From Myxococcus dinghuensis (GTDB lineage Bacteria > Myxococcota > Myxococcia > Myxococcales > Myxococcaceae), in NCBI RefSeq assembly GCF_024198235.1, contig NZ_JAKCFB010000023.1:62001-126000 (forward strand): a DNA stretch of 64,000 nt, in the 5' to 3' direction. The first letter of the stretch is position 1; each line of letters opens with the position of its first letter. Below are positions 8,235 through 39,013 of the stretch, piece by piece. The notes below the pieces were generated by a model that searched no databases, was not told where the DNA came from, and worked only from the letters and a program-made list of their open reading frames with translations. A program made the position numbers and the translations under genes.

Positions 8235-8477
8235 GGGCAACCTCCAGAAGGGGCGCCCACTCTCCGCCCCACCCCCGCACGTCGCAAGCGCGATGGTCTC
8301 CACGCGAGGTGCGGGGTCGGGACGGCTGCTCGGGTGGCGGGGAGGCGGGGAATCCCAGGGGCCACCGCGCGCCGAGAGGGGGAACGCGGCGCGCGGGGCT
8401 CAACTGGGACTTCATACGGCGGAATCGCTTTTGGGGGAGGCAATACCGCCGCTGCGTCTCACTCTTTGGGAGGAAAC

Positions 8478-9262: not shown

Positions 9263-11602
9263 ATGCTGATGGAGCTGTGGGCGCATCGCTTCTTCGAGCT
9301 GTCCACCGAGATGTTCGTCGTGCTGGGCAGCCACGGACGCATCCTGGAGGCGAACCCCGCCTGGGGCGCGACGGTGGGCTGGACACCCGTGGAGCTCAAG
9401 GGCGAGGGCTACCGCTCCTTCATCCACCCCGAGGACCTGGCGACGGTGGACGCGCGGCTGGAGGCGCTGCTGCACGCGCCGGGGAACACGCGCCTGTCGT
9501 TCCGGTGGCGCTGCCGGGACGGCACGTGGGCGTGGCTGGCGTGGAGCGTGGCCGGCTCCGCGGTGGGCGGGCCGCTCTACTGCACGGCGCGGCGGATGGA
9601 GTCCACGCCCGTGCAGGAGAAGCTGCGCACGAACGCGGAGGCCACCGAGTCGCTCGACCCGCCCTGGGCCATGAGCGACAGCCTGCCGCTGGGCCTCTAC
9701 GTGGTGGATGTGCGCACGGGTACGGTGCTCTACGCCAACCGTCGCTTCTGCCAGCTCTGGGGCATCGAGTCGTTGGAGGAGTCGCTGCGGCGGGGCGTGT
9801 TGTCGCACGAGGAGGTGCTGCGGCAGTGCCTGCGCGCCGGCGAGGCGGCCCAGTTCCTCCGGCTCCATCCCCTGACGGGAGACGCGCCGCCGCCGCTGCA
9901 CGGGGACGAGGCGGTGCTGGCCAACGGCCGCACCCTGCGCCGGCTGTCCACGCCCATGGGGACACGGGGCGACGAGTCGCGCTTCCGGCTGTTCGCGTTC
10001 GAGGACGTCACGGAGCGCAAGCGCACGGAGGAGGCGCTGCACCGCTCCGAGCAGAGCTTCCGCAAGCTCATCGAGGCGGCGCCGGAGGTCATCTTCGTCC
10101 ACCGCGACCAGCGCTTCATCTACGTCAACCCCACGCTGCTCAAGGCGCTGCGGTACGACCACGCCAGCGAGCTGATCGGCCGGCCCATCTGGAGCATCGT
10201 CCATCCGGACGACCTGGACATGGTGCGCCAGCGCGTGCACGCGGTGGTGGCGCGGGGTGAGCTGGCCCCGCTGCGCGAGATTCGCTACATGCGCCGCGAC
10301 GGCACCTGGTTCGACGCGGAGAGCGCGGGCCTGCCGGTGGACTTCGACGGCGTGGGCGCGGTGGTGGTGATGGCGCGCGACATCACCGAGCGCAAGCGCA
10401 TGCAGGCGCAGCTGCTCCAGTCGGACCGCATGGTGCTGGCGGGCACGCTCGCGGCGGGCGTGGGGCACGAAATCAACAACCCGTTGACGTACGTGCTGGC
10501 GAACCTCGACTCGGCGATGGAGTCCATCCACCGGCTGGGCGGGGAGCTGGGCCGCACGCTGCCGGACGGGGACATCGCGCCCAACTGGTCCATGTCGCTC
10601 AAGGACACGGTGGACCTGCTGCGCGAGGCGCACGAGGGCGCCACGCGGGTGCGCAACATCGTGAGGGATTTGAAGTACATCTCCCGCCAGGAGGAGGAGC
10701 GGCGCGAGCTGCTCGACGTGCGCGAGTCGCTCGAGTTCTCGCTCAAGCTGGCCTCCAGCGAGATGAAGCCGCGCGCGCAGGTCATCAAGCAGTACGAGTC
10801 CGTGCCACCGGTGTACGCGGACGCGTCGCGGCTGGGGCAGGTGTTCCTCAACCTGGTGGTGAACGCGGCGCAGGCCATCCCCGAGGGGGACCCGGCGCGC
10901 CACCGCGTGACGCTCTGGGTGCGGCCCACGCCCGCGGGGGGCGTGGCGGTGGACGTGAGCGACACGGGCTCCGGCATGCCCCCCAGCGTCATGGCGCGCA
11001 TCTTCGACCCGTTCTTCACCACGAAGGCGGTGGGCGCGGGCACGGGGCTGGGGCTGTCCATCTGCCACGGCATCATCAAGGGGCTGGGCGGCGACATCAC
11101 CGTGAACAGCGAGCCGGGCCAGGGGACGACGTTCACGGTGACGCTGCCGCCCGCGCCGCCGAACGCGCCGGTGCGCGAGGTGCCGGCGGCGCCCCTGCCC
11201 TCGTCCGAGCGCAGCGGGCGGATGCTGGTCATCGACGACGAGCCCGCGGTGGGGCGCTCGCTGGCGCGCATCATCGGCAAGCGGCACCACGTGACGGTGG
11301 TGGGCAGCGGCGAGGAGGCCCTGCTCAAGCTGGCGAGCGGGGCGGAGTTCGACGCCATCTTCTGCGACCTGATGATGCCGGGCATCACCGGCATGGACGT
11401 CTACGAGCGGGTGCGCGAGCGGGAGCCCGGCCTGGGGCTGCGCTTCATCTTCATCACGGGCGGTTCGTACACGGCGCGGGCGCGGCAGTTCCTGGAGCGC
11501 GTGCCCAACCCGCGCATCGAGAAGCCGTTCGACGCGCAGATGATCCAGCAGATCGTCGGAGAGGTGCTGGCGGTGGAGTCCACGGACATGCCGCCGGCGT
11601 GA
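9263..11602 (+). CDS. Hybrid sensor histidine kinase with three PAS domains and receiver domain
   Basis: A 779-residue soluble hybrid kinase. Three PAS-type sensor domains cover roughly residues 8-110, 140-265 and 270-390; two end in FEDVTERKR and ARDITERKR linkers. The dimerisation/phosphoacceptor segment is AAGVGHEINNP with His402. The ATPase domain carries NLVVNAAQAI (N box), DTGSGMP (G1) and TGLGLSICHGI (G2). A receiver domain follows (MLVIDDEPAVG, phosphoacceptor Asp702 in FCDLMMPG, and the conserved Lys in IEKPFD). No membrane helix is visible, so it senses a cytoplasmic signal. The ATG at 9263 has AAGGA 5 nt upstream. The attached receiver suggests a phosphorelay or self-regulation, with no obvious output partner nearby. 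Confidence 0.93.
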   Translation: MLMELWAHRFFELSTEMFVVLGSHGRILEANPAWGATVGWTPVELKGEGYRSFIHPEDLATVDARLEALLHAPGNTRLSFRWRCRDGTWAWLAWSVAGSAVGGPLYCTARRMESTPVQEKLRTNAEATESLDPPWAMSDSLPLGLYVVDVRTGTVLYANRRFCQLWGIESLEESLRRGVLSHEEVLRQCLRAGEAAQFLRLHPLTGDAPPPLHGDEAVLANGRTLRRLSTPMGTRGDESRFRLFAFEDVTERKRTEEALHRSEQSFRKLIEAAPEVIFVHRDQRFIYVNPTLLKALRYDHASELIGRPIWSIVHPDDLDMVRQRVHAVVARGELAPLREIRYMRRDGTWFDAESAGLPVDFDGVGAVVVMARDITERKRMQAQLLQSDRMVLAGTLAAGVGHEINNPLTYVLANLDSAMESIHRLGGELGRTLPDGDIAPNWSMSLKDTVDLLREAHEGATRVRNIVRDLKYISRQEEERRELLDVRESLEFSLKLASSEMKPRAQVIKQYESVPPVYADASRLGQVFLNLVVNAAQAIPEGDPARHRVTLWVRPTPAGGVAVDVSDTGSGMPPSVMARIFDPFFTTKAVGAGTGLGLSICHGIIKGLGGDITVNSEPGQGTTFTVTLPPAPPNAPVREVPAAPLPSSERSGRMLVIDDEPAVGRSLARIIGKRHHVTVVGSGEEALLKLASGAEFDAIFCDLMMPGITGMDVYERVREREPGLGLRFIFITGGSYTARARQFLERVPNPRIEKPFDAQMIQQIVGEVLAVESTDMPPA

Positions 11603-11656
11603 GGCAGTGCATCACCGCGCTGGATGGTCCGGCGCGCACGAAAAGGGAGTCGACTG

Positions 11657-12730
11657 GTGATTGGCGGCGGATTCGTCATCGATGCGGTAACACACGCGTA
11701 CAACCTGCACCCGTCCAACTATCGCGCCGGGAGGTACGCCGAGTCCCTGGCGCAGCTCATCTTCGGGCTGCACTCCGGGCTCTCCGGCGACACGCACCGC
11801 GTGGCCCAGCCCGAGCGCTTCCTGAAGAACTGGTCGGTGGACGAGCTGGCGCACATCCTCTTCGTGGAGAGCGACGTGGACCTGGCGGTCCACCACGTGC
11901 TGCCGTTGCAGACGCTGTACTCGGACGGGCTGTGCTCGTACGAGAAGACGGTCGACATCAAGAAGCGCTATCCGGACCGGTTCCTGGTGTACGCGGGCGT
12001 GGACCCGCTGCGCGGCACGGCGGCGCTGGACGACCTGGACCGGCAGGTGGAGGAGCTCCAGCCCGTGGGGCTGAAGCTCTACCCGGCGGCGTGGCTGGGC
12101 GAGTCCTTCAAGCACACCGGCTGGCGGATGGATGACCCGAGCATCGCGTTCCCGCTGTTCGAGCGGGCGCGCAAGCTGGGCATCCGGAACATCGCGGTGC
12201 ACAAGGGCCTGCCCATGGGGGCGGTGCCGCTGGAGGCGTACAAGGTCGACGACATCGGCGGGGCGGCGGATGCGTTCCCGGACCTGAACTTCGAAATCGT
12301 CCACGGCGGCATGGCGTTCCTGGACGAGACGGGGATGCAGCTCTCGCTGTTCCCCAACGTGTACGTGAACCTGGAGGTCACCGGCGCGCTGCTGGTGAAG
12401 CGCGAGCGCTGGTTCGCGGAGTCGCTGGCCGCGCTGCTCAAGTGGGCGGGCCCGGCGAAGATCATGTGGGGCTCCGGCACGGTGTTCAGCCACCCGCAGC
12501 CGGCCATCCACAAGTTCTGGCACGACTTCCAACTGCCGGACGAGCTGGTGCAGGTGGCCGGCATGCAGGTGACGCCGGAGGTGAAGCGGATGATCCTCTG
12601 CGACAACTACGCGCGCTACGCCGGCATCGACGTGGAGAAGGTCAAGGAGCGCATCGCCGGCGACGCGTTCTCGCGGAAGAAGGCGCTGGGGGGCATCACC
12701 CCGTACAGCTACCAGCCGGAGGCGCGGTGA
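11657..12730 (+). CDS. Amidohydrolase family protein (amidohydrolase-2 / ACMSD-like)
   Basis: A 357-residue TIM-barrel metal hydrolase or decarboxylase of the amidohydrolase-2 group. Seen are the N-terminal DAVTHAYNLHP, a strand-end Lys in PVGLKLYPA, and His residues in NIAVHKG and FEIVHGG. At the position of the usual last-strand Asp (GxDxP-like), the sequence reads IMWGSGTVFSHPQP, so that metal ligand appears to be Gly. Start GTG 11657 has GGGAG about 8 nt upstream; an ATG at 11624 is in frame but lacks a ribosome-binding site. The stop overlaps the next start (TGATG), so it is co-translated with a MIP18/PaaD-like protein. Substrate unknown; the altered metal ligand may mean a shifted site or different chemistry. 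Confidence 0.82.
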   Translation: MIGGGFVIDAVTHAYNLHPSNYRAGRYAESLAQLIFGLHSGLSGDTHRVAQPERFLKNWSVDELAHILFVESDVDLAVHHVLPLQTLYSDGLCSYEKTVDIKKRYPDRFLVYAGVDPLRGTAALDDLDRQVEELQPVGLKLYPAAWLGESFKHTGWRMDDPSIAFPLFERARKLGIRNIAVHKGLPMGAVPLEAYKVDDIGGAADAFPDLNFEIVHGGMAFLDETGMQLSLFPNVYVNLEVTGALLVKRERWFAESLAALLKWAGPAKIMWGSGTVFSHPQPAIHKFWHDFQLPDELVQVAGMQVTPEVKRMILCDNYARYAGIDVEKVKERIAGDAFSRKKALGGITPYSYQPEAR

Positions 12731-13104
12731 TGACCGAGCAGGAGCTGCGCGAGCGCATCCAGTCGATCCCCGACCCGTGCAGCCTGGCGACGGGCGTACC
12801 GCTGGGCATCGGGGAGATGGGCCTCATCGAGTCGCTCACGACGCACGAGGGGAAGGTGACGGTGCGCATGCACATCACCTCGCCCATGTGCATGATGGCC
12901 GCGTACTTCATGCGCGAAATCGAGCAGCGCCTCCAGGGATTGGCGGGCGTCGACGCCGTGCACGTCGAGTTCGACCAGGACTTGAAGTGGACGCCGGGCG
13001 ACATCCACCCGGACGCGCGTGAGCGGCTGGCCGCGCGGCGCATCACCATGCTCGGCGGGCGGCTGCTGCCGCGCGCGGAGGCCCAGGCCCCGAGCGGGTC
13101 CTGA
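12730..13104 (+). CDS. MIP18/PaaD-like (DUF59) iron-sulfur assembly protein
   Basis: A 124-residue single-domain protein. It has the family signature near the N-terminus (ERIQSIPDPCSL, then GIGEMGLIESL) and the TSPMCMMAAYFM segment, whose Cys matches the conserved reactive Cys of MIP18/SufT/PaaD proteins. Members help load Fe-S clusters onto target enzymes or, as PaaD, mature a specific oxygenase. The C-terminal ~25 residues are variable. It overlaps the stop of the amidohydrolase gene by one base, so the two are made together. The pairing suggests that the amidohydrolase, or a cluster-containing partner elsewhere, needs this factor. Confidence 0.78.
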   Translation: MTEQELRERIQSIPDPCSLATGVPLGIGEMGLIESLTTHEGKVTVRMHITSPMCMMAAYFMREIEQRLQGLAGVDAVHVEFDQDLKWTPGDIHPDARERLAARRITMLGGRLLPRAEAQAPSGS

Positions 13105-13214
13105 CGGATTCCGTGAGCCGGTGGCGGGAAGTCCGCGTCACCGGCCCACGGCTGTATCAGCTCGGGCCGCGAGCATCCTGCACGGTGGAGGAGTGGACCT
13201 CCCGGGGGTGGTCG

Positions 13215-13553
13215 ATGCGCGCTGGGGTCGTGCTGCTGGCCGTGGGAGCGCGGTGCGCGGGCTGTGCCTCGGTTCCCGAGTCCAACGGGTTCGCGCGGAC
13301 CGGCACGGGCCGGGGTCGCGTTGGAGGAGGTGCGGGCGACGCGACAGGCGGTCCTCGCCAGCGTGGTGGCGGTCCGCGAGCAGCTCGGTGAGACGGAGCA
13401 GACGCGACGTGGACTCGATCCCCTGACACCCATAAGGAGCGCGCCAAACACGTGTCGCGTGCACTGCGCGCCAATCCACCGCCTCCCGGCTGGCGTCCCC
13501 TCGGCCCGGATGACGAGTTGCTCCGCGCGCTCCTCCCAGACGAGGAGACCTGA
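13215..13553 (+). pseudogene. Small lipoprotein gene broken by two compensating frameshifts
   Basis: Three coding-looking pieces in a row spell one protein. From ATG 13215: a lipoprotein leader MRAGVVLLAVGA with a lipobox-like CAGCASVPES. In the +1 frame from ~13310: a helical ALEEVRATRQAVLASVVAV and REQLGETEQTRRGLDP. Back in the first frame from ~13425: DTHKERAKHVSRALRANP ending DDELLRALLPDEET at TGA 13553. The first frame alone is stopped at 13389-13391. The pattern is a short lipoprotein with a coiled-coil-like body, disrupted by one indel near 13300 and another near 13420. The alternative is sequencing error at two places. No known family recognised. Confidence 0.55.
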
Positions 13554-13577
13554 CACGGTGCTCCCTGTGCCACGGGG

Positions 13578-14633
13578 CTACAGCACCTTGCGCACGAGCT
13601 GCGGGAACACCTTCGACACCTTGCCGAGCAGATAGTCCCCGTACGTCCCCTCGAACGCGTGGACACTCGCCCCGTCCCACCGGCGGGCGCGGTCCTCATC
13701 CACGTCCGTGGAGCGCACGCGCGGCAGCGGGGGCACCTCCGCCGCGAAGTCTGGATCGAAGAACAACGGATACGAGAGCCGATCCCTCCCGCTCACGTTC
13801 TTCACCCGGTGCGGCGTCGAGCGGTACCAGCCTCCCGTCAGCCGGTCCAACATGTCCCCGATGTTGCACACCAACGTCCCCGGAGTGGGCGGCGCCTCCA
13901 CCCAGCCCCCCTGGGACTTCACCTGCAACCCACCGTTCGCGTCCTGCGCGAGCAGCGTCAACAACCCATAGTCCGTGTGCTCCCCCACGCCCCACCGCTC
14001 CTCTCCCTCCTCGGGCTCCGCCGGGTAATGGAAGACACGGAACAGCACCGTGGGGTCCGCCGTGTACGTCTTCGCGAAGTAGTCCGCCTCCAACCCCAGG
14101 CTCAGCGCCACGCCCTCCATCAACGCGTGCCCCGCTCGCGTGACGACGGACAGGTACTCGAGCACCACGTCCCGCAGCTCCGGCACCTCCGCCGGCCAGA
14201 GGTTCGCCCCATGCAACGGCCAACCCTCGCGCACGCGCGGATGCTCGGGCCCCAGCTCCGTGCCCAGGTACAACCCCTCCTTGCGGTCCGGCTTGCCCGA
14301 CGTCAGCTCCCCACCCAACGGGAACCACCCCCGCCACGCCGCGCCGCCCTTCGGCATCGCGATGGCCTCCTTCTCCTCGCGCGACAACGCGAAGAAGCGG
14401 CGGCTCACACGCTCCAGCCTGTCCAGCAACGACTCCGAAACGCCGTGCCCCGACACATAGAAGAACCCCGTGTCCCGACACGCCCGCTCGATTTCACGCG
14501 CGACCCGCTCGCGCGCCTCGGTCCGCTCACGCGCGAAGAGCGAGGACATGTCGATGACAGGCAGGCGTCCACCCGAGAGCGAGGACACGTCCCCGTCGGA
14601 CAAGCTGCCGGACGAGAGGGGGGCTCGGACCAT
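13578..14633 (-). CDS. Isopenicillin N synthase-like 2-oxoglutarate/Fe(II) oxygenase
   Basis: A 351-residue non-heme iron dioxygenase. The N-terminal DIOX_N part has LPVIDMSSL and [14 protein letters not shown]. The jelly-roll core has the iron triad His219-x-Asp221 ([12 protein letters not shown]) and His275 (RSTPHRV), and the 2-oxoglutarate-binding RxS is Arg285-Ser287 ([10 protein letters not shown]). [12 protein letters not shown] is also characteristic. Enzymes of this type hydroxylate, desaturate or cyclise small molecules. The start is placed at the internal ATG 14633, since the longer frame adds only a basic, unrelated leader; the ribosome-binding site is weak. It stands alone, so the substrate is unknown. 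Confidence 0.9.
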
Positions 14634-14827
14634 GCCCCGAGCGTACACCGACACGCGGACCGTCCGTGCGAGCCGCGTCACGCCGCCCGCGCGCCCTCCG
14701 GGTCATGCGCCCAGGTGACGCCATCCAAAAGATGGCTCCATGACCCACGGCAGGCAGGCGTGTCACCTCTCACGCCGGCCTGGACACCTGCCTCACGTCG
14801 AGGGAGAGAGGGCGCCCGAGCCTCATC

Positions 14828-16018
14828 ATGTCGACGCCAGCGCCCTCGCCCTCCCCTCACGCCACACTGAGCTCCGGGCTCGTGTGGCTCATGGCCATCG
14901 CCTGCGGCGCCACCGCCGCGAACCTCTATTACAACCAGCCCCTGCTCGGAGACATCGGCCGCGAGCTGGGCGCGGAGGGCAGCGCGCTCGGCCTCGTGCC
15001 CACGCTCACCCAGGTGGGCTACGCGGTGGGCATGCTGTTCATCGTCCCGCTCGGGGACAGCCTGGAGCGCCGCCGCGTCATCGTCACCATGACCGTGCTG
15101 GTGAGCCTGGCGCTCGTGGGCGCCGCGCTCGCGCCGTCGCTGATGTGGCTCACCCTCGCCAGCTTCCTCATCGGCGTCACCACCGTCGTCCCGCAGCTCA
15201 TCATCCCCTTCGCCGCGCACCTCGCGCCCGACGCCCAACGCGGTCACATCGTCGGCATGGTGATGAGCGGCCTGCTCATCGGCATCCTGCTGTCGCGCAC
15301 CGCGTCCGGCTTCGTCGGCACCCACCTGGGCTGGCGCGCCATGTTCTGGGTCGGCGCCGGGCTGATGCTCGTCCTCGCCCTGGTGCTGCGCTTCACCCTG
15401 CCCTCGCAGCCGGCCGTGGCCTCCATGCCGTACCCGGAGCTGATGCGCTCGCTCGTCCACCTGGTGAAGACCGAACCGGTGCTGCGCCTGCACTCGGTGC
15501 TCGGCGCCCTCACCTTCGGCGCGTTCAGCGTCTTCTGGTCCACGCTCGCGCTCTACCTCCAGAGCCTGCCGCAACACTACGGGCCGCAGGTCGCCGGCCT
15601 CTTCGGCGTGGTGGGCGTCGTCGGCGCGCTCATCGCCCCCATCGTCGGCCGCTACTCGGACGCGAACGGCGGCCGGCGCATGAACATGCTGGCCATGGGC
15701 GTGCTGCTGCTCTCCTTCGTCCTCATGTGGCCGCTCGGCGCGTGGCTGTGGGGCATCGCCCTCGGCGTGGTGCTGCTCGACCTGGGCGCGCAGGGCAACC
15801 ACCTGTCCAACCAGACGCGCGTCTACGCCCTGCGCCCCGAGGCGCGCAGCCGCCTCAACACCCTCTACATGGTGACGTACTTCGCGGGCGGCGCCGCCGG
15901 CTCGTGGCTCGGCACCGCCGCGTGGACCCACGCGGGCTGGACGGGCGTCTGCGCGGCGGGCGCGGCGCTGGCCTTCGCGGGCATCGTCATCCTCGCGCTC
16001 GCGCGCAACCGCCCCTGA
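14828..16018 (+). CDS. MFS transporter (12-helix exporter)
   Basis: A 396-residue inner-membrane permease with twelve predicted hydrophobic segments. It begins in the typical way (LVWLMAIACGATAANLYYNQPLL) and carries motif A-like PLGDSLERRRVI between helices 2 and 3, and GRYSDANGGRR between helices 8 and 9. The NLYYNQPLL signature is shared with a widespread group of bacterial MFS efflux proteins of the YajR/AraJ-like type. An upstream GAGGGAGAGAGG stretch could serve ribosome binding at a distance. It converges on the quinone-oxidoreductase-like gene with only 7 bp between the stops. Substrate unknown. Confidence 0.9.
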   Translation: MSTPAPSPSPHATLSSGLVWLMAIACGATAANLYYNQPLLGDIGRELGAEGSALGLVPTLTQVGYAVGMLFIVPLGDSLERRRVIVTMTVLVSLALVGAALAPSLMWLTLASFLIGVTTVVPQLIIPFAAHLAPDAQRGHIVGMVMSGLLIGILLSRTASGFVGTHLGWRAMFWVGAGLMLVLALVLRFTLPSQPAVASMPYPELMRSLVHLVKTEPVLRLHSVLGALTFGAFSVFWSTLALYLQSLPQHYGPQVAGLFGVVGVVGALIAPIVGRYSDANGGRRMNMLAMGVLLLSFVLMWPLGAWLWGIALGVVLLDLGAQGNHLSNQTRVYALRPEARSRLNTLYMVTYFAGGAAGSWLGTAAWTHAGWTGVCAAGAALAFAGIVILALARNRP

Positions 16019-16025
16019 GCCCCAG

Positions 16026-16979
16026 CTACGGCTTCGACACCGTCAGCACGACCTTGCCACGCCCATGGCCCGAGTCGAGCCGACGGTGCGCGTCCCCCAC
16101 GCGCTCCAGCGGCAACACCTCCGCCACGACGGGGCGCACCTGCCGGCGCTCGAGGAGCACCGACAGCTCCTCCAGCCTGCGCCGCTCCCGGTCGAGGAAG
16201 ACGCCATGCAACGTCTGGTTGCGCGGATACAGCCCGCTCACGTCCCCCACCACGTCGAGGATGGTGGCGAGCCGCCCGTGTCGACGCGTCACGGGGATGC
16301 TGGGGATGATGTTCCTCCCCACCGTGTCGAAGACGGCGTCCACGCCCTGCCCGTCCGTCTCGCGCAGGACGCGCTTCGGCACGTCCTCCTGCTGGTAGTC
16401 GATGGCCACGTCCGCGCCCAGCTTGCGCAGCAACTCCAGGTTCGCCGGCCCCGACGTCGCCAGCACCCGCGCGCCCACCGCCTTGGCGATCTGCACCGCG
16501 AACGTGCCCACGCCTCCCGCGCCACCGTGGATGAGCACCGTCTCGCCCACGCGGACCTGGAGCCTCCGCACCACCGCGTCCCACGCGGTGCCACCCGCGA
16601 GCGGGACGGCGGCGGCCTCCTCGTGCGAGAGGCTCGGCGGCTTGCGCGCGACGATGTCCACCCCCACGACGTTCAGCTCCGCGTACGTGCCCAGCGGGTT
16701 GCCGAAGATCTCCGGCGTGTAGAAGACCTCGTCGCCCGCCTTGAAGTCGGTGACGCCCGGACCCACCTGCTCCACCACGCCCGACGCGTCGTAGCCCAGG
16801 ACGACCGGAGGCTTCAGGCCCGCCCAGGTGCCGTCGTGGCGGAGCTTCGCGTCGACGGGGTTGGTCCCTGAAGTGACGACCCGGACGAGCACCTGTCCGG
16901 GGCCGGGCGAGGGAGCGGGGAGGTCCTGGGCCTGGAACGACTCGGGCCCGCCGAAGCGGGGCAGAACGATGGCGCGCAT
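16026..16979 (-). CDS. Zinc-independent quinone oxidoreductase-like MDR enzyme
   Basis: A 317-residue medium-chain dehydrogenase/reductase. The N-terminal GroES-like domain starts MRAIVLPRFGGPESF and lacks the Cys/His ligands of zinc alcohol dehydrogenases, as expected for the quinone oxidoreductase (QOR) branch. The NADPH-binding motif is HGGAGGVGTFAVQIAKAVGA. Such enzymes reduce quinones or the double bond of alpha,beta-unsaturated ketones and aldehydes. The ATG at 16979 is chosen because homology starts there; upstream codons of the open frame look non-coding and no strong ribosome-binding site is seen. It converges with the MFS gene and lies just downstream of the carboxylase cluster on the same strand, but with a 75-bp gap it may have its own promoter. 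Confidence 0.9.
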   Translation of the reverse strand: MRAIVLPRFGGPESFQAQDLPAPSPGPGQVLVRVVTSGTNPVDAKLRHDGTWAGLKPPVVLGYDASGVVEQVGPGVTDFKAGDEVFYTPEIFGNPLGTYAELNVVGVDIVARKPPSLSHEEAAAVPLAGGTAWDAVVRRLQVRVGETVLIHGGAGGVGTFAVQIAKAVGARVLATSGPANLELLRKLGADVAIDYQQEDVPKRVLRETDGQGVDAVFDTVGRNIIPSIPVTRRHGRLATILDVVGDVSGLYPRNQTLHGVFLDRERRRLEELSVLLERRQVRPVVAEVLPLERVGDAHRRLDSGHGRGKVVLTVSKP

Positions 16980-17054
16980 GCCCGAGGGGCTAATCGACCC
17001 CCCTCGACGCTCGCAAGCCAAGGAGGCCGCGAGCGTCGATGGTCCAACACCCGC

Positions 17055-19064
17055 TCAGCCCTCGGCGCTCTTGGGCTTCGCCTCCGGCTTCAGCTCGACG
17101 AGCAGCTGCTTCGCGGACACCTGCCCGCCGACGGTCGCGTTGACGGCCTCGACCACGCCCGGGATGTCCGCGATGAGCTGGAACTCCATCTTCATCGCCT
17201 CCAGCACGACGAGGACGTCACCCGGCTTCACCGTGGCCCCGGGCTTCGTGTCCACGCGGAGGATGCGGCCGTCCATCGGCGCGAGCAGTCGGCCCGTGCC
17301 CGCCCCGTCCGCGCCCACGGGGGGACGGAACGTCACGTCCGTGAAGTGCCGCGCACCCCCACCCAGGTCCAGCCAGAGCGCGCTGCCCTCGTGGAGACAC
17401 CGCGCCTTCTCGCGCGTCCCCGCCACGGTGTAGTCGAGCACGCCCTCCGCCATGCCCAGCACGGCCAGGTCGTACGTCTCACCGCCCACGGAGACCTCGT
17501 AGCGCGCGGTCGACACCGGACGCACGGAGACCTTCGACTCGCCCGTCCGGTCCTCGAGCTTCAACTGGACGGCGTGCGCGTGGGCCGTGTTCCAGTTCAC
17601 CCACGAGGCGTCGAGCCCCGCCTCGCGCACCAGCGACTGCGCCTCCGCGTGGTGCAGCGCGGCGCCCGCCAGCGCGCGCTCCTTCGTCGAGGGCTGGTAC
17701 AGCCGCTCCAGCGTCGCCGCGTCCGCGTGCTTGCCGATGAAGCCCGTGTCGTAGGCGCCCGAGCGGAACGCCGCGTTCTCCAGGACGTGCAGCAGCAGGT
17801 CCTTGTTCGTGGTGACGCCGAACACGGTCAGCTCGTGCAGCGACTCCACCAGCCGCCGGCGCGCCAGCTCGCGGTCCGCGCCATACGCAATCACCTTCGC
17901 CTGCATCGAGTCGTAGAAGGGCGGGATGTCCTGCCCCTCGCGCACGCCGTGGTCGATGCGCAGCCCCTCGCGCGACGGCAGTCGCCACGCGGACAGCCGG
18001 CCCGCCTGCGGCGCGTAGTTGTTCGCCGGGTCCTCCGCGCACAGGCGCACCTCGATGGCGTGCCCCGTCCAGGTGATGTCCTTCTGCGCGCGCGGCAGCT
18101 CCTCGCCCGAGGCGACGCGCAACTGCCACTCCACCAGGTCCAGGCCGGTAATCTGCTCGGTGACCGGGTGCTCCACCTGGAGACGCGTGTTCATCTCCAT
18201 GAAGTAGAACGCGCCGTCGGGCGCGAGCAGGAACTCGATGGTGCCCGCGCCCTTGTAGGCGATGGCCTTCGCCGCCGTCACGGCCACCTGGCCCATGCGC
18301 TCGCGCAGCTCCGCGTCCACCGCGGGCGATGGGCTCTCCTCGACGATCTTCTGGTGACGCCGCTGCACGGAGCAGTCGCGCTCGCCCAGGTGGACGGCGT
18401 TGCCGTGCTCGTCCGCGAAGACTTGGATCTCCACGTGCCGCGCGTTGACCACGGCGCGCTCCAGGATGAGCTCGCCGCTGCCGAACGCGTTCGTCGCCTC
18501 CGAGCGCGCAGCGCGCAGCGCCGGGGCGAGCTGCGCGGGCTCGTGGACGAGCCGCATGCCGCGCCCACCACCGCCGGCCGCCGCCTTCACCATCAGCGGG
18601 AAGCCGATGCGCTCACCCTCCTTCGCGAGCGTGGCGTCGTCCGCGTCGGAGGCCTCGTAGCCGGGGATGCAGGGCACCCCCGCGGCAATCATGCGCAGCT
18701 TGGCCTGCCGCTTGTTGCCCATCAGGGTGACGGCCTCCGGGTCCGGGCCGATGAAGACCAGCCCCGCATCCTTGCACGCGCGCGAGAAGGCCGCGTTCTC
18801 CGAGAGGAAGCCGTAGCCCGGGTGGATGGCCTGCGCCCCCACCGACTTCGCCGCCGCGATGAGCTTCTCGATGACGAGGTAGGACTCCTTCGCGGGCGAC
18901 GGGCCGATGGGCACCGCCTCGTCCGCCGCGAGCACGTGCGGGGCCGCGCGGTCCGCCTCGGAGAACACCGCCACCGTCCGGTAGCCCAGCCGCTTGCAGG
19001 TGCGCATCACCCGGACGGCGATCTCACCGCGGTTGGCGACCAGGACCTTGCTGAAACGCTCCAT
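17055..19064 (-). CDS. Acyl-CoA carboxylase alpha subunit: biotin carboxylase + biotin carrier (methylcrotonyl-/geranyl-CoA type)
   Basis: A 669-residue subunit that carboxylates biotin with ATP and bicarbonate. The biotin carboxylase domain (residues 1-450) begins KVLVANRGEIAVRV, has the ATP-grasp glycine loop AAAGGGGRGMRLV, and EMNTRLQVEHPVTE. A linker domain follows, then the biotinyl domain with EAMKMEF, whose Lys625 is the biotin attachment site. Length and layout match MccA/LiuD and AtuF. The ATG at 19064 has GAGGAG ~8 nt upstream. It lies 14 bp after the carboxyltransferase gene, and with the AtuA-like gene forms an operon. Role: leucine (3-methylcrotonyl-CoA) or acyclic terpene (geranyl-CoA) breakdown; the AtuA neighbour favours the latter or a mixed role. 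Confidence 0.9.
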   Translation of the reverse strand: MERFSKVLVANRGEIAVRVMRTCKRLGYRTVAVFSEADRAAPHVLAADEAVPIGPSPAKESYLVIEKLIAAAKSVGAQAIHPGYGFLSENAAFSRACKDAGLVFIGPDPEAVTLMGNKRQAKLRMIAAGVPCIPGYEASDADDATLAKEGERIGFPLMVKAAAGGGGRGMRLVHEPAQLAPALRAARSEATNAFGSGELILERAVVNARHVEIQVFADEHGNAVHLGERDCSVQRRHQKIVEESPSPAVDAELRERMGQVAVTAAKAIAYKGAGTIEFLLAPDGAFYFMEMNTRLQVEHPVTEQITGLDLVEWQLRVASGEELPRAQKDITWTGHAIEVRLCAEDPANNYAPQAGRLSAWRLPSREGLRIDHGVREGQDIPPFYDSMQAKVIAYGADRELARRRLVESLHELTVFGVTTNKDLLLHVLENAAFRSGAYDTGFIGKHADAATLERLYQPSTKERALAGAALHHAEAQSLVREAGLDASWVNWNTAHAHAVQLKLEDRTGESKVSVRPVSTARYEVSVGGETYDLAVLGMAEGVLDYTVAGTREKARCLHEGSALWLDLGGGARHFTDVTFRPPVGADGAGTGRLLAPMDGRILRVDTKPGATVKPGDVLVVLEAMKMEFQLIADIPGVVEAVNATVGGQVSAKQLLVELKPEAKPKSAEG

Positions 19065-34349: not shown

Positions 34350-35792
34350 TCAGGGCGGCGCGGTGATGGTGAGCCGGTAGACGTCCGGCTCACCGTCGCG
34401 CGTCGACCAGACGAGCAACTGCGTCTCCCCGGGAGCGCGCCCCGTGAGCTGGACGCCGTCCTCCACGAGGGCGACCTCCACCAGGCTGGGTTCTCCCACC
34501 GCGAGACGGAACAGCCCCGGCGCCGGGAGCACCTTGGTCGCGCCCAGGCCCAGCGTGATGGCCTCGTGCTGGAACGGCGACCCCTGGCCGCTGGCGGTGT
34601 CGCGCCTGGCCACGGCGTACCCCACCGACACGAGGACCGACACGGCCAGGACGCCACCCACCCAGCGGCCTCGTCGACGAGGCGCGGTGGCGAGCGCCCG
34701 CAGCAACCCCTCCATCGACGGGTAGCGCGCGTCCGGCGTGGGTGACAACCCTCGCGTCAGCGCTTCACGGACGTGCCGTGGCAGCCGAGGACGCTTCGCC
34801 GTGGGAGGGCGCGGCGACGTGGTCCCGGGCCGCTCGCCGTGGAGGGCCTCGTACAGCGCGACGCAGAAGCTGTACTGGTCGCTGCGCGCGTCCACCGGCA
34901 ATCCCCGCCGCTGCTCGGGAGACATATAGGCGGGCGTGCCCGGTGACATGCCCTCGCGCGTGAGCGCGGTCTGCTCCGCGTCCCACGCGGCGTCCCCGGA
35001 CGAGGCGCCGGTGTCGTGGGCACCTGGCGGTGACGACTCCCAGCGCGCGATGCCGAAGTCCGTGACGCGGGCCCGTCCGTCCCGGCCCACCAGCACGTTG
35101 GAGGGCTTGAAGTCGCGGTGGACCAGCCCCTGACGATGCGCGGCGGCCAGCCCCTCTCCGGCTTCCAGGAAGAGCGCCAGCACCTCGCGCCAGGGACGCT
35201 CCCGCTCGCGCAGCCAGCCCGCGAGCGTCGTCCCCTCCACCCACTCCATGGCCAGGAAGTCGCGCCCGTCCGACGAGCCCAGGTCGAAGAGCGGCAGCAC
35301 GTTGGGGTGGGACAGGCGCGCCATGGCCTTGGCCTCGCGCAGCAGCCGTTCGCGCCGCTCCTGCTGGGAGCCACCTCGCGCCGGGCGCAGCAGCTTCAGC
35401 GCGACGCGGCGGCCCAACCGGGGGTCCTCCGCCGCGTACACCACGCCCATGCCGCCCATCCCCAGCAGCTCCCGCAGCACATACGGCCCCAGGCGCGTGC
35501 CCGGAGGCAGCACCTTCGGATCCGCGCCGGGCTCGAGCAGCGTGGACGCGCCCGTCTCCAGTCGGGTGGGTGCTTCCGCGTCCGGCGAGGCCCCCGCGTC
35601 CGCCACGGAGGCCTCCGCCGCCACCGCGCCCACCAGCGCGCGGCAGTCCGCGCAACCATCCAGGTGCGCCTCCAGCCTCGCGACGTCCGGCGCGGGGAGC
35701 GCGCCGCCGACGAAGCCCACGAGCACGTTCTCGTCCGGGCACGCGCCGGGCAGCGGGAGGGAGGGGCTCATCTGGGGGACCGTGCGCAACAT
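34350..35792 (-). CDS. Ser/Thr protein kinase with N-terminal zinc finger and exported C-terminal domain
   Basis: A 480-residue membrane kinase. Residues 17-55 look like a zf-HC2/anti-sigma zinc finger (CPDENVLVGFVGGALP, then His43-x3-Cys47-x2-Cys50). The kinase domain spans ~104-370 with LGMGGMGVVY, Lys133, HRDFKPSN (225-232) and DFG (245-247), so it should be active. One membrane helix lies at ~377-395. The external tail (~411-478: LGLGATKVLPAPGLFRLAVG, then GRAPGETQLLVW) resembles the pilus-assembly N-terminal domain of secretin-type proteins, and two neighbouring secreted proteins. The ATG at 35792 has GGAGG 8 nt upstream. It likely reads a signal outside and phosphorylates targets inside; the zinc finger may hold the sigma factor encoded upstream. 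Confidence 0.9.
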   Translation of the reverse strand: MLRTVPQMSPSLPLPGACPDENVLVGFVGGALPAPDVARLEAHLDGCADCRALVGAVAAEASVADAGASPDAEAPTRLETGASTLLEPGADPKVLPPGTRLGPYVLRELLGMGGMGVVYAAEDPRLGRRVALKLLRPARGGSQQERRERLLREAKAMARLSHPNVLPLFDLGSSDGRDFLAMEWVEGTTLAGWLRERERPWREVLALFLEAGEGLAAAHRQGLVHRDFKPSNVLVGRDGRARVTDFGIARWESSPPGAHDTGASSGDAAWDAEQTALTREGMSPGTPAYMSPEQRRGLPVDARSDQYSFCVALYEALHGERPGTTSPRPPTAKRPRLPRHVREALTRGLSPTPDARYPSMEGLLRALATAPRRRGRWVGGVLAVSVLVSVGYAVARRDTASGQGSPFQHEAITLGLGATKVLPAPGLFRLAVGEPSLVEVALVEDGVQLTGRAPGETQLLVWSTRDGEPDVYRLTITAPP

Positions 35793-35864
35793 CCTCGCAG
35801 CCTCCTGGACGGGGAGGAAGACAGGGGCCCCACGGACACCGCGGGCCCCTGTTGAACGTCCGCG

Positions 35865-36179
35865 CTAGTTCGCGGGCGTCGCGGCCTTCGACCCGGTGTC
35901 CTGGGACACCACGATGTCGAAGGCCCGGAGGCTGTCGTTCTCGTCCCAGGTGATGAGCTTCGTCGTGCCAGCCTCGCGGCCGGTCAGCGACACCTGGCCG
36001 GCCTCGCTCCCCATCTTCACCTGGGCCACCTCCGGGTCGCCGATGGCCAGCCGCTTGAGCTTCTTCACCGTGAGGACCTTGGTCTGTCCCACGTCGAGTT
36101 GGATGCGCTCGTCGGCGCCCGCCACGGTGCCCACCAGCGTCAGCGCCATCATCGCGATGCCCATCAGTCCGTTCCGCAT
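35865..36179 (-). CDS. Small secreted protein, pilus-assembly-N-like domain (copy A)
   Basis: A 104-residue exported protein. Signal peptide MRNGLMGIAMMALTLVG ending near AGA. The mature part (ERIQLDVGQTKVLTVKKL, LAIGDPEVAQVK, GREAGTTKLITW) is a single beta-rich domain like the N-terminal domain of CpaC/RcpA-type secretins. The tail ends SKAATPAN. The same domain forms the external end of the kinase encoded 72 bp downstream and the secreted copy at 37240-37521. The ATG at 36179 is set by the signal peptide; GGAGACACGAC lies before it. Likely a periplasmic ligand, adaptor or competitor for the kinase tail. Confidence 0.82.
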   Translation of the reverse strand: MRNGLMGIAMMALTLVGTVAGADERIQLDVGQTKVLTVKKLKRLAIGDPEVAQVKMGSEAGQVSLTGREAGTTKLITWDENDSLRAFDIVVSQDTGSKAATPAN

Positions 36180-36190
36180 GTCGTGTCTCC
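36102..36190. repeat. 89-bp repeat, copy A (start region of secreted protein)
   Basis: It aligns without gaps to 37444-37532, with about eight differences. The block covers the first ~25 codons (signal peptide) and ~11 bp upstream, while the mature domains are much more divergent. This points to recent duplication, or exchange limited to the signal peptide. Confidence 0.8.
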
Positions 36191-36260
36191 GGGAAAAGGG
36201 GAGTACCGCCGCCTTCAATCCGGTGACACCGGCCACTCCGCGGTGTTGCACGCCCCCGCG

Positions 36261-36290
36261 AAAAAACCGGGCGGCGACCGGCTACCCCGG
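36261..36290 (-). terminator. Terminator-like hairpin and T-run after the sigma factor gene
   Basis: Leftwards, CCGGG-14 nt-CCCGG (36290-36267) is followed at once by six T (36266-36261). The stem overlaps the sigma-gene stop (36284-36282). It may attenuate read-through from the sigma gene into the secreted protein and kinase genes. Confidence 0.4.
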
Positions 36291-37175
36291 CTCCCGGAGC
36301 ATCGCCGGCAGGCTCAGGTCCAGCTGGCTGCGCACCGCGCGCATCAGGCTGTACAGCTCCTCCGAGGAGAGCTGGAGGCGCTCCGCCAACCGCTCCCGCG
36401 CCCCGGTGAGGAGCGCCTCCCGCGCGTGCGCCACCCAACGCGACACCGTGGACTTGTGCGTCTGGTACATCGCGCCGATGCGCTCCAGGCTCAGCCCCTC
36501 CACCACGTGCAGCCGCAACACGGTGCGCTCACGCGAGGAGAGCGCGGCGAGCGCGTCCGCCAGCACGGCCCGGAAGTCCTCGCGGTGTCTCCGGCGCAGG
36601 TAGTCCAGCTCCACGTCCAAGCCGCCGCCCGTGAGCACCCCCACCTCCGCGTCCTCCTCCACGCGCGCGCGTCGTCCCTCCGAGCGCTGGAGGTTGAGCG
36701 CGGTGCGCACCGCCGCCGCGCGCAGCCACGCGACCAGCGTGCCCGCGCCCTGGTACTCCGCGATGCGCGGCAACGCCCCCTCCTCCGCGTCGGGGACCAG
36801 CAACCGCTGACGCAGGTGCTGCAACACCTCCGCCGTGTCCACGCCTCCACCGCGGATGCGCGCCACGGCCGGGGCCACCCGGGGCAGGACGTCCCGCTCC
36901 AGCGCGGCGTGCGCGGAGGCGAGGCCTCGCGCGCAGGCACACGCGAGGTAGAGGTCCGCCGCCGGCAGCGTGGCCAGGTCCACGCCCGACGCCAGCCGCT
37001 CCGCGACGTGCCGCAGGAAGTCCTCGTCGGACAGCGCGACCTCCGGCCACGCCGCGCGACCCGCGGCCAACCACGAGTCCAGCAAGGACTCCATCTCCAC
37101 CGCGTCCGCCAACGACCGGGCGGCCGGAGACAACGACTCGACGAATACGCGCACCCGGTGCTCGTGGCCGGTCAT
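36282..37175 (-). CDS. Sigma-70-like factor (Myxococcales-type)
   Basis: A 297-residue sigma-70 family protein. Region 2 is diverged (VAWLRAAAVRTALNLQR, ~residues 140-160). Region 4 is clear (ALAALSSRERTVLRLHVVEG, then LSLERIGAMYQTHKSTVSRW, the helix-turn-helix) near residues 210-260. The long N-terminal ~125-residue extension and the C-terminal EELYSLMRAVRSQLDLSL match my memory of a lineage-specific group of Myxococcales sigma-70 paralogs. The ATG at 37175 has GGAGG 5 nt upstream. It lies between the two secreted proteins and upstream of the zinc-finger kinase, which makes that kinase its likely regulator. Confidence 0.85.
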   Translation of the reverse strand: MTGHEHRVRVFVESLSPAARSLADAVEMESLLDSWLAAGRAAWPEVALSDEDFLRHVAERLASGVDLATLPAADLYLACACARGLASAHAALERDVLPRVAPAVARIRGGGVDTAEVLQHLRQRLLVPDAEEGALPRIAEYQGAGTLVAWLRAAAVRTALNLQRSEGRRARVEEDAEVGVLTGGGLDVELDYLRRRHREDFRAVLADALAALSSRERTVLRLHVVEGLSLERIGAMYQTHKSTVSRWVAHAREALLTGARERLAERLQLSSEELYSLMRAVRSQLDLSLPAMLREPG

Positions 37176-37239
37176 GCATCCCTCCACGAAGCATGCTCGC
37201 CCGGAATCCCCCGCCCCACCAACTGGCGGGCGGCGCGCG

Positions 37240-37521
37240 CTACTCCGTCACCACCACCGTGTACTCCTTGCGGTCCTCCTTCTTCTTGCCCCACGTCAGC
37301 AGCAGCGTGGTGCCCGGCGCCTTGCCGACGATTTCAATCTGCGACCGGCCCTTCGTCCGGGCCTCCGCCTTCTCGGTGTCACCGACCGCCACCCGCGACA
37401 GGCCCTCCACGGTGATGACCCGCTTCTGGCCCACCTCCAGGTCGATGCGCTCCTCGGCGCCCGCCGCCGTTCCCACCAGCGTCAGCGCCATCATCGCGAT
37501 GCCCAGCAGCCCGTTCCGCAT
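37240..37521 (-). CDS. Small secreted protein, pilus-assembly-N-like domain (copy B)
   Basis: A 93-residue exported protein with a signal peptide almost identical to copy A (MRNGLLGIAMMALTLVG). The mature domain (ERIDLEVGQKRVITVEGL, RVAVGDTEKAEAR, GKAPGTTLLLTW) has the same fold signature but is quite different in residues and ends KEYTVVVTE. It is the first gene of the likely operon, 64 bp before the sigma gene. The signal-peptide DNA is nearly the same as copy A. With the kinase tail, it makes three versions of this domain in 3.2 kb. Confidence 0.82.
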   Translation of the reverse strand: MRNGLLGIAMMALTLVGTAAGAEERIDLEVGQKRVITVEGLSRVAVGDTEKAEARTKGRSQIEIVGKAPGTTLLLTWGKKKEDRKEYTVVVTE

Positions 37522-37532: not shown

Positions 37533-37879
37533 AAGGAACGAGTCGTTGCAACATCCACCACATGACAACAGTTATTGAGTGGATTTTCACGTCTTCCATG
37601 GACGCAAGGGAAGTCGCGATGTGGGGAGGAGACGGCGCACGTCGTGAAAGACTTTCGTTGTTACAGCGCGGTCGTCCATTTCTACAGGGTTCATCATACG
37701 CCAAGAGTCGAGAAAGGCCGTGGGAGGGGCGCGTTCTTCACCCTCCTGGCGGAGGTGGATGACACGCGCCGCACAGCGCCCCCGCCTCGTGGGCGACAGG
37801 GTTGCCGGACAGCGAACGCCCGCGTCGCGCGGCATGCCGCCTGCTTCCCCGCAGGTCATCCGTTCGGGGGGCTTGGCTT
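37522..37879. other. Intergenic region between divergent secreted-protein/sigma operon and TPR gene
   Basis: About 360 bp, locally less GC-rich (especially 37540-37700). It must hold the promoters of both the minus-strand operon and the plus-strand TPR gene. No gene, clear palindrome or strong -35/-10 pair was identified by eye. Confidence 0.5.
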
Positions 37880-39013
37880 ATGAACGAGCGTGAGCAGGTG
37901 AGGTTGAAGGAGCTGAAGGACGCCGCACAAACCCTGTTCAACCAGGGCCGGTACGCGCAATGCGCGGAGCTCTACGCGACCCTGCTCCGGCTGACACCCA
38001 AGGACCCGAACCTCCACATGCGGCACGCGGAGAGCTGTCGTCGCGCGGGACAGGCCGGCGCCTCCATCGTGTCGTATCGCGCCGCCGCGCGGCTGCTGGT
38101 CGCGCTGGGACACGGTTCGCGTGCCCGCGCCGCGCTGCGCGCCGCGCTCGCCGTGGCACCCGACGACCCCACGCTGCTGGCGGAGTTCGAGCAGTTGGGA
38201 CACGTGGCGGTTCCGCCGTCGACCGCGCTCGAGGACGAGCGGCTCTACAGCCACGCGGCGGGGTTCTTCGCGCTCACCCAGGGAGATGGGTCGCACGGGC
38301 GCCGCGACACGCCGCCGCCTCCGCCGCCCGCCTTCGTGCTGCGCGCCGCCGAGGAGACACACCCCCACGGGTCGCTGCCAAAGGTGCCGACGATTCCGCC
38401 CGTCGACCTGGCCCTGCTGCGACAGCGCAACGCCTCGCCCACGCGGGCACCCGTGCCTCCGGACAGCGCGACACCGAGCGTCACGCCTCCGCCGCCTCGC
38501 GCCTCTCCTCCCTCGATGAGCTCCATCCCGGTGGTGATGGGCGTGGAGCTTCCCCGCGCGGCCGAACCCGTGGTGACGAACACGCCCCTGCCCACGTCCG
38601 TGAAGCGGCGCGAGGAGCCACCGCCGCGTCGGCCTCCCACGTTGCTGCCCGTGCCCATGGACTTCCAGGCGCCCGAGCCTCCGCCGCTGGAGGAGCTGCC
38701 TCCGCTGCCGGAGCCCGCGGAGCCATCCCGCGCGGAGGCCTCACTCCGGCCCCAGGTCCAGGTGGCCATCCCCGTGAGCGCGTGGCCGCAGCAGGCCTCG
38801 CTGACGCTGCCGCCCACGACGGCGGTCCGCCCCGAGCTGCGGAGACTCGGCCCCAACGTCGTGGCCATCCGCGTGTCGCCCCAGTCCCGCTGGGTCATCT
38901 TCCGCTCGGACAGCCCGCTCGAGGTGCTGCGCTCGGAGTCCCTGCCCGGAGCCCCGCGCGAGGAGCCTCGGAGCCAGCGCTCCACGATGGGCGAAGACGT
39001 GTGGCCCAACTAG
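37880..39013 (+). CDS. TPR protein with Pro-rich linker
   Basis: A 377-residue protein. Residues 1-110 contain about three TPR-like helical hairpins (AAQTLFNQGRYAQCAELYAT, LHMRHAESCRRAGQAGASI, RARAALRAALAVAPDDPTLL). From ~140 to ~300 the sequence is low-complexity Pro/Glu-rich with repeated PPPP and PEPPPLEELPPLPEP. The last ~60 residues (RLGPNVVAIRVSPQSRWVIF) are ordered and acid/Ser-rich at the end. No signal peptide. The ATG at 37880 is set by the first TPR helix. Likely a cytoplasmic scaffold or adaptor. It is divergent from the sigma/kinase operon, so it could share regulation. Confidence 0.8.
   Translation: MNEREQVRLKELKDAAQTLFNQGRYAQCAELYATLLRLTPKDPNLHMRHAESCRRAGQAGASIVSYRAAARLLVALGHGSRARAALRAALAVAPDDPTLLAEFEQLGHVAVPPSTALEDERLYSHAAGFFALTQGDGSHGRRDTPPPPPPAFVLRAAEETHPHGSLPKVPTIPPVDLALLRQRNASPTRAPVPPDSATPSVTPPPPRASPPSMSSIPVVMGVELPRAAEPVVTNTPLPTSVKRREEPPPRRPPTLLPVPMDFQAPEPPPLEELPPLPEPAEPSRAEASLRPQVQVAIPVSAWPQQASLTLPPTTAVRPELRRLGPNVVAIRVSPQSRWVIFRSDSPLEVLRSESLPGAPREEPRSQRSTMGEDVWPN

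Follow-up and report, generated by a model that had tools for sequence, protein, structure and literature searches.

Four genes are arranged on the minus strand of the window, the 64,000-nucleotide stretch of Myxococcus dinghuensis DNA analyzed here, in the order copy B, sigma factor, copy A and kinase (Table 1). The existence of this same-strand set, with the domains and motifs ascribed to it in the original prediction, is confirmed by the gene order and by the Pfam and TIGR03001 scores. That earlier picture covered positions 34350-37521 and is extended here by two further elements, P1 and P2, of which P1 lies outside that range.

Table 1. Features of the locus, in window coordinates.
Feature	Position	Strand	Length	Score	Remarks
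P1 conserved element	37658..37687	-			CTGTAGAAA-N12-CTGTAACAA; upstream of copy B; may serve divergent TPR gene
Copy B	37240..37521	-	93 aa	49.6 bits	Predicted secreted; single PF13629 (Ig-like) domain; recent duplicate
Sigma factor, ECF-type, TIGR03001 (Sig-70_gmx1)	36282..37175	-	297 aa	284.1 bits	
P2 promoter-like element	36225..36250	-			TGCAAC-N15-GTGTC; 45 bp before copy A ATG
Copy A	35865..36179	-	104 aa	58.2 bits	Predicted secreted; single PF13629 (Ig-like) domain
Kinase	34350..35792	-	480 aa		zf-HC2, Ser-Thr kinase, one membrane helix, PF13629 tail
Zinc-finger region of kinase	35591..35771	-		zf-HC2 28.8 bits	C18, H43, C47, C50; PDB match 3hug_B; H, C, C invariant
External PF13629 tail of kinase	34353..34568	-		41.4 bits scanned alone	Fast-evolving

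The profile search upheld the proposed membership of the sigma factor in TIGR03001, the score lying above the cut-off of 154.6 bits, which was also exceeded by all seven rescanned sigmas from outside the genus (a separate sigma profile of our own lacked one paralogue, L027, owing to a frame slip). An acidic residue occupies the last position of the sigma2.2 motif in 27 of 27 rows, comprising 26 module sigmas and that of L032, and the first position in 24 of them; loss of the sigma2.2 acidic residues, of the type seen in ECF43, was not found in these 27 rows.

Copies A and B carry near-identical signal-peptide-like leaders, as read by eye, and little else beyond the PF13629 domain. The AlphaFold2 model of copy A is a 7-strand sandwich (pLDDT 92.5). 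Homology of these domains with the external tail of the kinase, as originally claimed, was recovered by comparison of the tail profile with the secreted profile (probability 99.7%, E 3.2e-26), and all of them pass the PF13629 cut-off of 23 bits, the kinase tail with 37.7. In addition, PF13629 was matched at E 0.01 or better by all 16 tail domains. PF13629 is shared with secretins of the Tad type and their relatives (RcpA, CpaC type), and PDB sequence matches include 8odn (RcpA) and 8jvb/9wfd. Unlike these secretins, copy A, copy B and the kinase lack the PF00263 secretin domain, which is present in a secretin of the same genome (L028).

The kinase scores 111.7 bits for Pkinase and exceeds the zf-HC2 cut-off of 22.2. 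Its catalytic motifs had been described as intact, and indeed K133, H225-R226-D227, N232 and D245-F246-G247 are present and invariant in the 21-row orthologue alignment; by its catalytic Lys, HRD, Asn and DFG the protein is assigned to the Hanks-type Ser/Thr kinases. The single membrane helix is likewise predicted, at residues 376-395, between the kinase domain and the tail. In the same alignment H43, C47 and C50 of the finger are invariant and C18 nearly so. The only PDB sequence match of the finger is 3hug_B (E 0.003), listed as a 'probable conserved membrane protein', which we take to be the anti-sigma factor RslA.

Resemblance to the class I zinc anti-sigma factors (ChrR, RsiW, RslA) extends to the Hx3Cx2C motif, the predicted helices (21-28, 34-44 and 48-61), an adjoining ECF sigma gene, here on the same strand and two genes upstream, and a membrane helix as in the membrane-bound members. 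Here, unlike in those proteins, a full protein kinase stands between finger and membrane helix, and no fourth helix, such as class I anti-sigma domains have, is seen in the predicted finger structure, in which residues 60-89 have pLDDT below 50. Two of the six finger-bearing kinases in this genome (L101, L102) have no sigma match adjoining, so the finger alone is no proof of a sigma partner. For L097 and L100 the motif is present but Pfam gives no match to it, and the L044 finger scores below the cut-off.

The occurrence of these genes was followed across related genomes. The unit was read in at least 34 different genomes. These comprise 23 from the genus, six from g17, three from g14 and one Myxococcaceae MAG, which together represent four genera of a single family, and one genome from a second family; further modules are possible beyond them. 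Loci from the same genome (L030 and L063, L096 and L031, L105 and L058) were counted once, and L032, which has a distant sigma without the sigma-secreted-kinase module, is outside the 34. Within the genus, 23 of 27 genomes, the present one included, possess the sigma orthologue. The sigma gene is followed by a secreted gene on the same strand in all 23, and the kinase comes next in 22. Among the 22 other genus genomes the kinase is complete within a single stretch in 20, while L058 is completed by the overlapping L105; in L065, the one such case in the 34 genomes, the contig end precedes the kinase. Because the sigma-secreted order is kept in all 22 other genus genomes with a sigma orthologue, the arrangement is not due to chance. 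The 34 loci are all related, however, and thus represent far fewer independent events, and loss of the sigma amounts to about two or three.

The conserved unit consists of three genes, encoding the sigma factor, the secreted PF13629 protein and the kinase. The expected co-occurrence in relatives holds for these three; outside this core stands copy B, a recent duplicate found at its position, among the loci read, only in the window and in its nearest relative (L050). Four genus genomes lack the sigma orthologue; two of them (L038, L039) retain a lone secreted gene at the matching place. In the genomes G097 and G104, also without the orthologue, the PF13629-type matches are restricted to frames of secretin length and to divergent genes (L119, L120, L123), which were left out of the count of lone loci. 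In total, lone secreted genes with neither sigma nor kinase adjoining were recorded at nine loci.

In all 34 sigma-bearing loci the sigma gene is followed by the P2 element, of the form [TC]GCAA[CG]-N15-GTGTC, always with a spacer of 15. With that spacer, 35 matches were detected in 967,602 bases (59 loci), versus 0-3 for each of the other spacers from 10 to 20. It is absent at all nine loci with a lone secreted gene, in two of which the P2 core is one base off (TGCGAC). A stricter version has one exact match in the M. dinghuensis genome, and in L095 the element ends 11 bases before the ATG of the kinase. P2 is a promoter-like element, tied by its distribution to the sigma factor and new here. 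A wider P2 regulon was considered and rejected: the core pattern gave three matches in this genome versus seven for the reversed control. Of the two additional core matches, one falls within a called gene (L103); the other is 45 bp ahead of a called start and some 160 bp ahead of the first ATG in a small gene that is followed by grpE (L104). Both were treated as chance. P1 was considered as a possible promoter of the sigma factor, but among 59 loci its TGTAGAAA form is confined to those that have the divergent TPR gene, and it may therefore belong to that gene.

A PF13629-type tail was matched in every first module kinase that could be read to its end, the exceptions being tandem second kinases. 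The domain numbers of secreted protein and tail agree in L044, with two each, but not at every locus: there are two secreted domains versus one tail domain in L054, L097 and L100, and two secreted proteins versus one tail domain in the window. Pfam assigns four PF13629 domains to the kinase of L095, one of the 34 loci, and our own profile five or six; no separate secreted gene lies within the 13.7 kb of that locus. Since that genome gives at least 12 matches to the tail profile, other PF13629 genes do exist in it. The extra domains fused to this kinase are consistent with an association of secreted protein and tail.

Pooled dN/dS reached 0.87 (interval 0.66-1.18) for the tail and 0.55 for the secreted protein, versus 0.25-0.27 for sigma and kinase, in the eight pairs (out of twelve) that share no genome. 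The tail ratios of the four pairs left out were 0.36, 0.36, 1.92 and 0.15, the last of these (L056/L062) being below the sigma value of the same pair, 0.28. In the twelve-pair set L056/L057 and L056/L062 may compare unlike tandem kinases; the eight-pair set corrects L056/L057. Among the eight pairs, a Fisher p below 0.05 was obtained for the tail only in window/L050 (0.04, uncorrected), and positive selection on the tail is suggestive only. Co-evolution of tail and secreted protein beyond their shared history was not supported: the partial correlation of their distances was 0.55 when sigma was controlled for and 0.83 when RtcB was, but 0.04 given kinase distance (genus comparison without L037, L031, L044 and L032). 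A phylogeny of 67 domains (L030 and domains of fewer than 60 residues left out) was set aside for the deep forks, as these 70-residue domains offer too few columns.

We incline, with confidence a little above even, to the view that the locus is an ECF signalling operon that spans the membrane and contains its own feedback loop. P2 would be recognized by the sigma factor and would drive expression of the kinase and of the Ig-like (PF13629) secreted protein. The N-terminal zinc finger of the kinase would act as an anti-sigma domain, binding the sigma factor and holding it at the membrane, and the presumably active kinase domain would adjust the grip of the finger, or phosphorylate the sigma factor or other putative targets. 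Outside the membrane, the secreted domain would meet the homologous tail, and this contact may convey the condition of the pool of secreted protein, or of a structure assembled from it; the sign of the control is one that we infer. The scheme builds on features established at the sequence level, i.e., gene order, domains, catalytic residues, zinc ligands, the tie between P2 and sigma, the L095 fusion and the persistence of the secreted gene where no kinase adjoins. A more specific version, tentative and on balance doubtful, would be a self-sensing loop, whereby the only recognizable promoter of the sigma factor makes its own anti-sigma kinase together with a secreted copy of the kinase sensor. 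Through contacts between like Ig domains, which change rapidly, the cell would then gauge its own secreted product, and the signal could be one of inventory, of crowding or of a kin type.

Alternatively, the secreted protein could simply be what the pathway produces, a building block of the envelope or of a pilus-like structure, with the tail sensing something else and the shared fold reflecting domain reuse without contact. PF13629 is the N-terminal domain of secretins, and the lone secreted genes show dN/dS of 0.21-0.58 in four pairs; their persistence at the nine loci indicates that the secreted protein is useful in its own right. The several PF13629 domains on the L095 kinase itself, and the consistent presence of the tail in first module kinases, argue against a building block that never meets the kinase, and we regard this explanation as unlikely. 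The lone genes also bear on the model of the original prediction, in which the secreted copies are decoys, competing with the tail for an outside ligand or capping it against that ligand, and so tuning sensitivity. A common fold, the recent duplication of copy B and the fast-changing faces of tail and secreted protein all fit such a role, but a pure decoy would not persist where no kinase adjoins, and the model appears distinctly unlikely.

Equally improbable, in our estimate, is that the sigma factor is switched on by phosphorylation, as in the ECF43 pairs EcfP-PknT and EcfK-PknS, the finger merely docking it. In those systems, as here, the gene of a membrane Ser/Thr kinase with a sensing domain outside the inner membrane adjoins that of an ECF sigma, and the catalytic residues of the present kinase are invariant. 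They differ in that the kinase described here has a zinc finger, the sigma factor has sigma2.2 acidic residues and a tail-homologous secreted protein is encoded between the two. According to PMC8999054 and PMC13147305, ECF43 sigmas typically lack the acidic residues that are kept in the sigmas of this module. EcfK nevertheless retains a single acidic residue, and phosphorylation, some of it in the linker, still regulates this sigma (PMC13147305), which speaks for the phosphorylation route.

The feedback operon that we favor would elaborate a known theme. Five of the six TIGR03001 sigmas in this genome adjoin a kinase with the HxxxCxxC motif, and the combination of sigma factor and finger-bearing kinase is therefore not unique to the locus. 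Three such pairs (L023, L024, L025) share the sigma family and the finger-kinase N-terminus, and their sigma and kinase gene ends overlap by four bases, in the order kinase-sigma in L023 and L024 and sigma-kinase in L025. They differ from the present locus in that the kinases end in TPR repeats, no PF13629 gene is near and no P2 core match was found. The claim that no comparable system had been described thus has to be narrowed with respect to the pairing, which recurs; it stands for the full sigma/secreted/kinase arrangement, of which no description was found in the open literature searched, an earlier listing in the main ECF classification being possible. The architecture looks new in form.

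If this interpretation is true, two known modes of regulation, the anti-sigma finger and the Ser/Thr kinase, would be joined in one receptor, which would further gain a secreted partner of the same fold and a promoter short enough for direct testing. PF13629, known from secretins, would gain a role in signalling, and the cell may control its own signalling receptor through a secreted protein. The module is also present in Myxococcus xanthus (L030), and the loop is therefore testable in a tractable laboratory species.

The original prediction of four genes on one strand (the minus strand), encoding two secreted proteins (copies A and B), a sigma factor and a kinase, was borne out at the level of protein families. 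PF13629 exceeded the Pfam cut-off in both copies and in the external domain (tail) of the kinase, zf-HC2 (its N-terminal zinc finger) and Pkinase exceeded theirs in the kinase, and the sigma factor exceeded the NCBIfam cut-off for TIGR03001.

Genes of the locus, with their positions in the window
Feature	Positions	Strand	Order of transcription
Copy B, secreted PF13629 protein	37240-37521	minus	first
Sigma factor, TIGR03001	36282-37175	minus	second
Copy A, secreted PF13629 protein	35865-36179	minus	third
Kinase, 480 residues, zf-HC2 + Pkinase + PF13629 tail	34350-35792	minus	fourth
Divergent TPR gene	37880-39013		

The homology proposed between the external domains was upheld by profile-profile comparison, in which the tail (16 rows) and secreted (21 rows) profiles aligned over 74 columns with a probability of 99.7. 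The AlphaFold2 model of the copy A domain is a seven-strand sandwich (pLDDT 92.5), which Ig-like domains of the PDB match with modest scores (best E 9.1e-04); PF13629 is tabulated among the Ig-like fold families in PMC8877628. The solved sequence relatives of the domain are secretins, including RcpA; the module proteins are not themselves secretins. In the kinase model, the N-terminal part forms three helices and is followed by the kinase domain, a helix spanning residues 376-395 and a beta-rich tail (mean pLDDT 73.7, with low-confidence linkers).

With the sigma protein as query, 27 genomes of the genus, that of the window included, yielded 23 orthologues scoring at least 324 bits, clearly separated from the next matches (at most 192.1 bits). 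The other 22 loci were fetched and read in six frames. All contained the sigma gene followed on the same strand by that of a secreted PF13629 protein, as expected if these genes co-occur in relatives, and in 20 of the 22 a finger kinase with a PF13629 tail came next in the same stretch; the kinase end of L058 was found in an overlapping stretch (L105), and in L065 the contig ends before the kinase. The gap between the sigma and secreted genes reached 4.8 kb in L057 and about 9.4 kb in L058, where an insert of about 9 kb (8483-17833) contains a repeated, transposon-like pair of ORFs (104 and 579 amino acids) in opposite orientation. M. xanthus AM003 (L030) carries the module, which was also detected outside the genus, in genera g17 (L037, L092-L094, L117 and L118, the finger motifs of the last two being checked separately) and g14 (L095, L097 and L100), in a Myxococcaceae MAG (L031, the same genome as G148 of genus g3) and in another family of the order (L044). 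In total, the loci read with the module represent 34 distinct genomes.

Thus defined, the recurrent unit consists of sigma factor, secreted protein and kinase; the fourth predicted member, copy B ahead of the sigma gene, was restricted among the loci read to the window and L050, its closest relative. The numbers of secreted and tail domains were one and one in most loci, two and one in L054, L097 and L100, and two and two in L044. The 13.7 kb of L095 examined revealed no separate secreted gene, and the L095 kinase (5916-10238) carries fused PF13629 domains, four according to Pfam and five or six with a custom profile; the tail profile matches 12 times across this genome, which therefore contains PF13629 genes elsewhere. 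The L095 sigma gene begins within the final part of a gene for a T2SSE-family ATPase (PilT-like by reading), a possible tie to pilus motors. In L056, L057, L062 and L105 there are two kinases in tandem, and the tail of the second gives a weaker PF13629 match or none.

Of the 26 loci examined first, 25 have a promoter-like element (P2), TGCAAC-N15-GTGTC, before the secreted gene, and the remaining one (L044) has TGCAAG-N15-GTGTC there. P2 was also found in L092-L095, L117 and L118, and as CGCAAG-N15-GTGTC in L097 and L100, so that all 34 module loci possess it; the L095 copy is situated ahead of the kinase gene, with only 11 bases between its end and the ATG. When [TC]GCAA[CG]-N-GTGTC was scanned on both strands of 59 loci (967,602 bases, window left out), spacer 15 gave 35 matches, and every other spacer between 10 and 20 gave 0-3. 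The 35 comprised 31 module sites, two elsewhere in the L031 and L044 module regions and two presumed chance matches in the M. dinghuensis genome. One such P2-like site, in stretch L104 (6346-6371) and probably due to chance, is located upstream of a small gene that precedes grpE. P2 was absent from all nine loci in which a secreted gene lacks an adjacent sigma gene (L038-L042, L099 and L108-L110, of which L108-L110 were covered for just 3.2 kb). Two of them, L038 and L039, have a core with one changed base (TGCGAC), and their spacer bases beside the -10 half also deviate from the consensus. Since these nine lone loci represent about two or three sigma-loss events, the association of P2 with the sigma factor, although strong in kind, should not be counted as nine independent cases. 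A stricter P2 had one exact match in the M. dinghuensis genome and, at up to three mismatches, fewer matches (68) than its reversed control (89). On these sequence patterns, the simplest reading is that the module sigma factor would read P2 as its main or sole target.

In many loci, a second conserved element, P1 (TGTAGAAA-N-TGTAACA), lies farther upstream, ahead of the sigma gene, copy B or the lone secreted gene, and may act in either direction. It is unique in the M. dinghuensis genome at up to three mismatches, and its matches in the 59-locus scan were confined to loci with a divergent TPR gene. M. xanthus-like loci have no such gene, and a related element with different spacing precedes their sigma gene. 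The searched form of P1 occurred in eight of the nine lone loci, and a variant in L099. A relative of the TPR gene was present at all nine, and its product may thus act as partner to the secreted protein. In L038, the position that the kinase occupies in relatives is taken by a sulfatase gene (6024-8084), flanked by DUF4142 and the lone secreted gene. Divergent PF13629 proteins (frames of 163 and 165 amino acids) were seen in L119 and L120, from two genus genomes without a sigma orthologue, and neither P1 nor P2 was matched near their genes.

Within the genus, median identities were 0.66 for sigma, 0.70 for the kinase, 0.65 for the finger and 0.90 for the flanking RtcB, versus 0.39 for the tail and 0.46 for the secreted protein. 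Pooled over eight pairs with no genome in common, dN/dS was 0.25 for sigma and 0.27 for the kinase, versus 0.87 (interval 0.66-1.18) for the tail and 0.55 (0.40-0.75) for the secreted protein; the outside faces are thus about 2-3 times as free to change as the inside faces, which may reflect relaxed constraint or diversifying selection. Tail and secreted distances correlated at 0.85, but no correlation beyond the history of the kinase was detected (0.04 with kinase distance controlled).

In the proposed mechanism, the kinase finger would inhibit the sigma factor, the kinase domain would modulate this inhibition, and the secreted protein would be both output and signal of the pathway. The lone secreted genes have been retained (dN/dS of 0.21-0.58 in four pairs), which argues that the protein has its own use, and it is therefore read as an output as well as a signal. 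The only PDB match of the finger was 3hug_B, which we take to be the anti-sigma factor RslA. The alternative, activation of sigma by phosphorylation, has a precedent in the ECF43 sigma factors, which typically lack acidic sigma2.2 residues (PMC8999054 and PMC13147305); the module sigma factors have kept these residues, and differ from ECF43 in this respect. Owing to these residues and to the finger match, finger-based inhibition with kinase modulation is favoured over phospho-activation. In class I anti-sigma domains, an Hx3Cx2C motif spans helices 2 and 3, helix 1 binds sigma4 and helix 4 binds sigma2, according to PMC7406223; by sequence, the module finger conforms to such a zinc anti-sigma domain apart from helix 4, and the module also has the sequence features of TIGR03001, PF13629 and Hanks kinases. 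We infer binding, target and sign of control; the module would work like a membrane anti-sigma/kinase receptor. No account of this arrangement was found in the open literature searched, a body that excludes the main ECF classification.

The M. dinghuensis genome encodes six TIGR03001 sigma factors over the cut-off, five of which, including that of the window, adjoin a kinase with an HxxxCxxC motif; sigma-kinase pairing is thus a recurrent theme in this genome, and the distinguishing mark of the window locus is the PF13629 tail together with its secreted homologue. Partners in L023, L024 and L025 are zf-HC2/kinase/TPR proteins (the L025 finger being 0.3 bits under the Pfam cut-off), the L026 kinase is divergently placed, its motif seen by eye and absent from the Pfam matches, and the sixth sigma gene (L027) neighbours an alanine racemase gene. 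By reading of the match lists, zf-HC2 directly precedes a kinase domain in six proteins, one of them (C40) below the cut-off. Two of the six, the finger/kinase/TPR proteins of L101 (9179-12268) and L102 (8836-11739), showed no match to a sigma factor across the stretches examined. In L023, L024 and L025, each sigma gene overlaps the finger/kinase/TPR gene by four bases.
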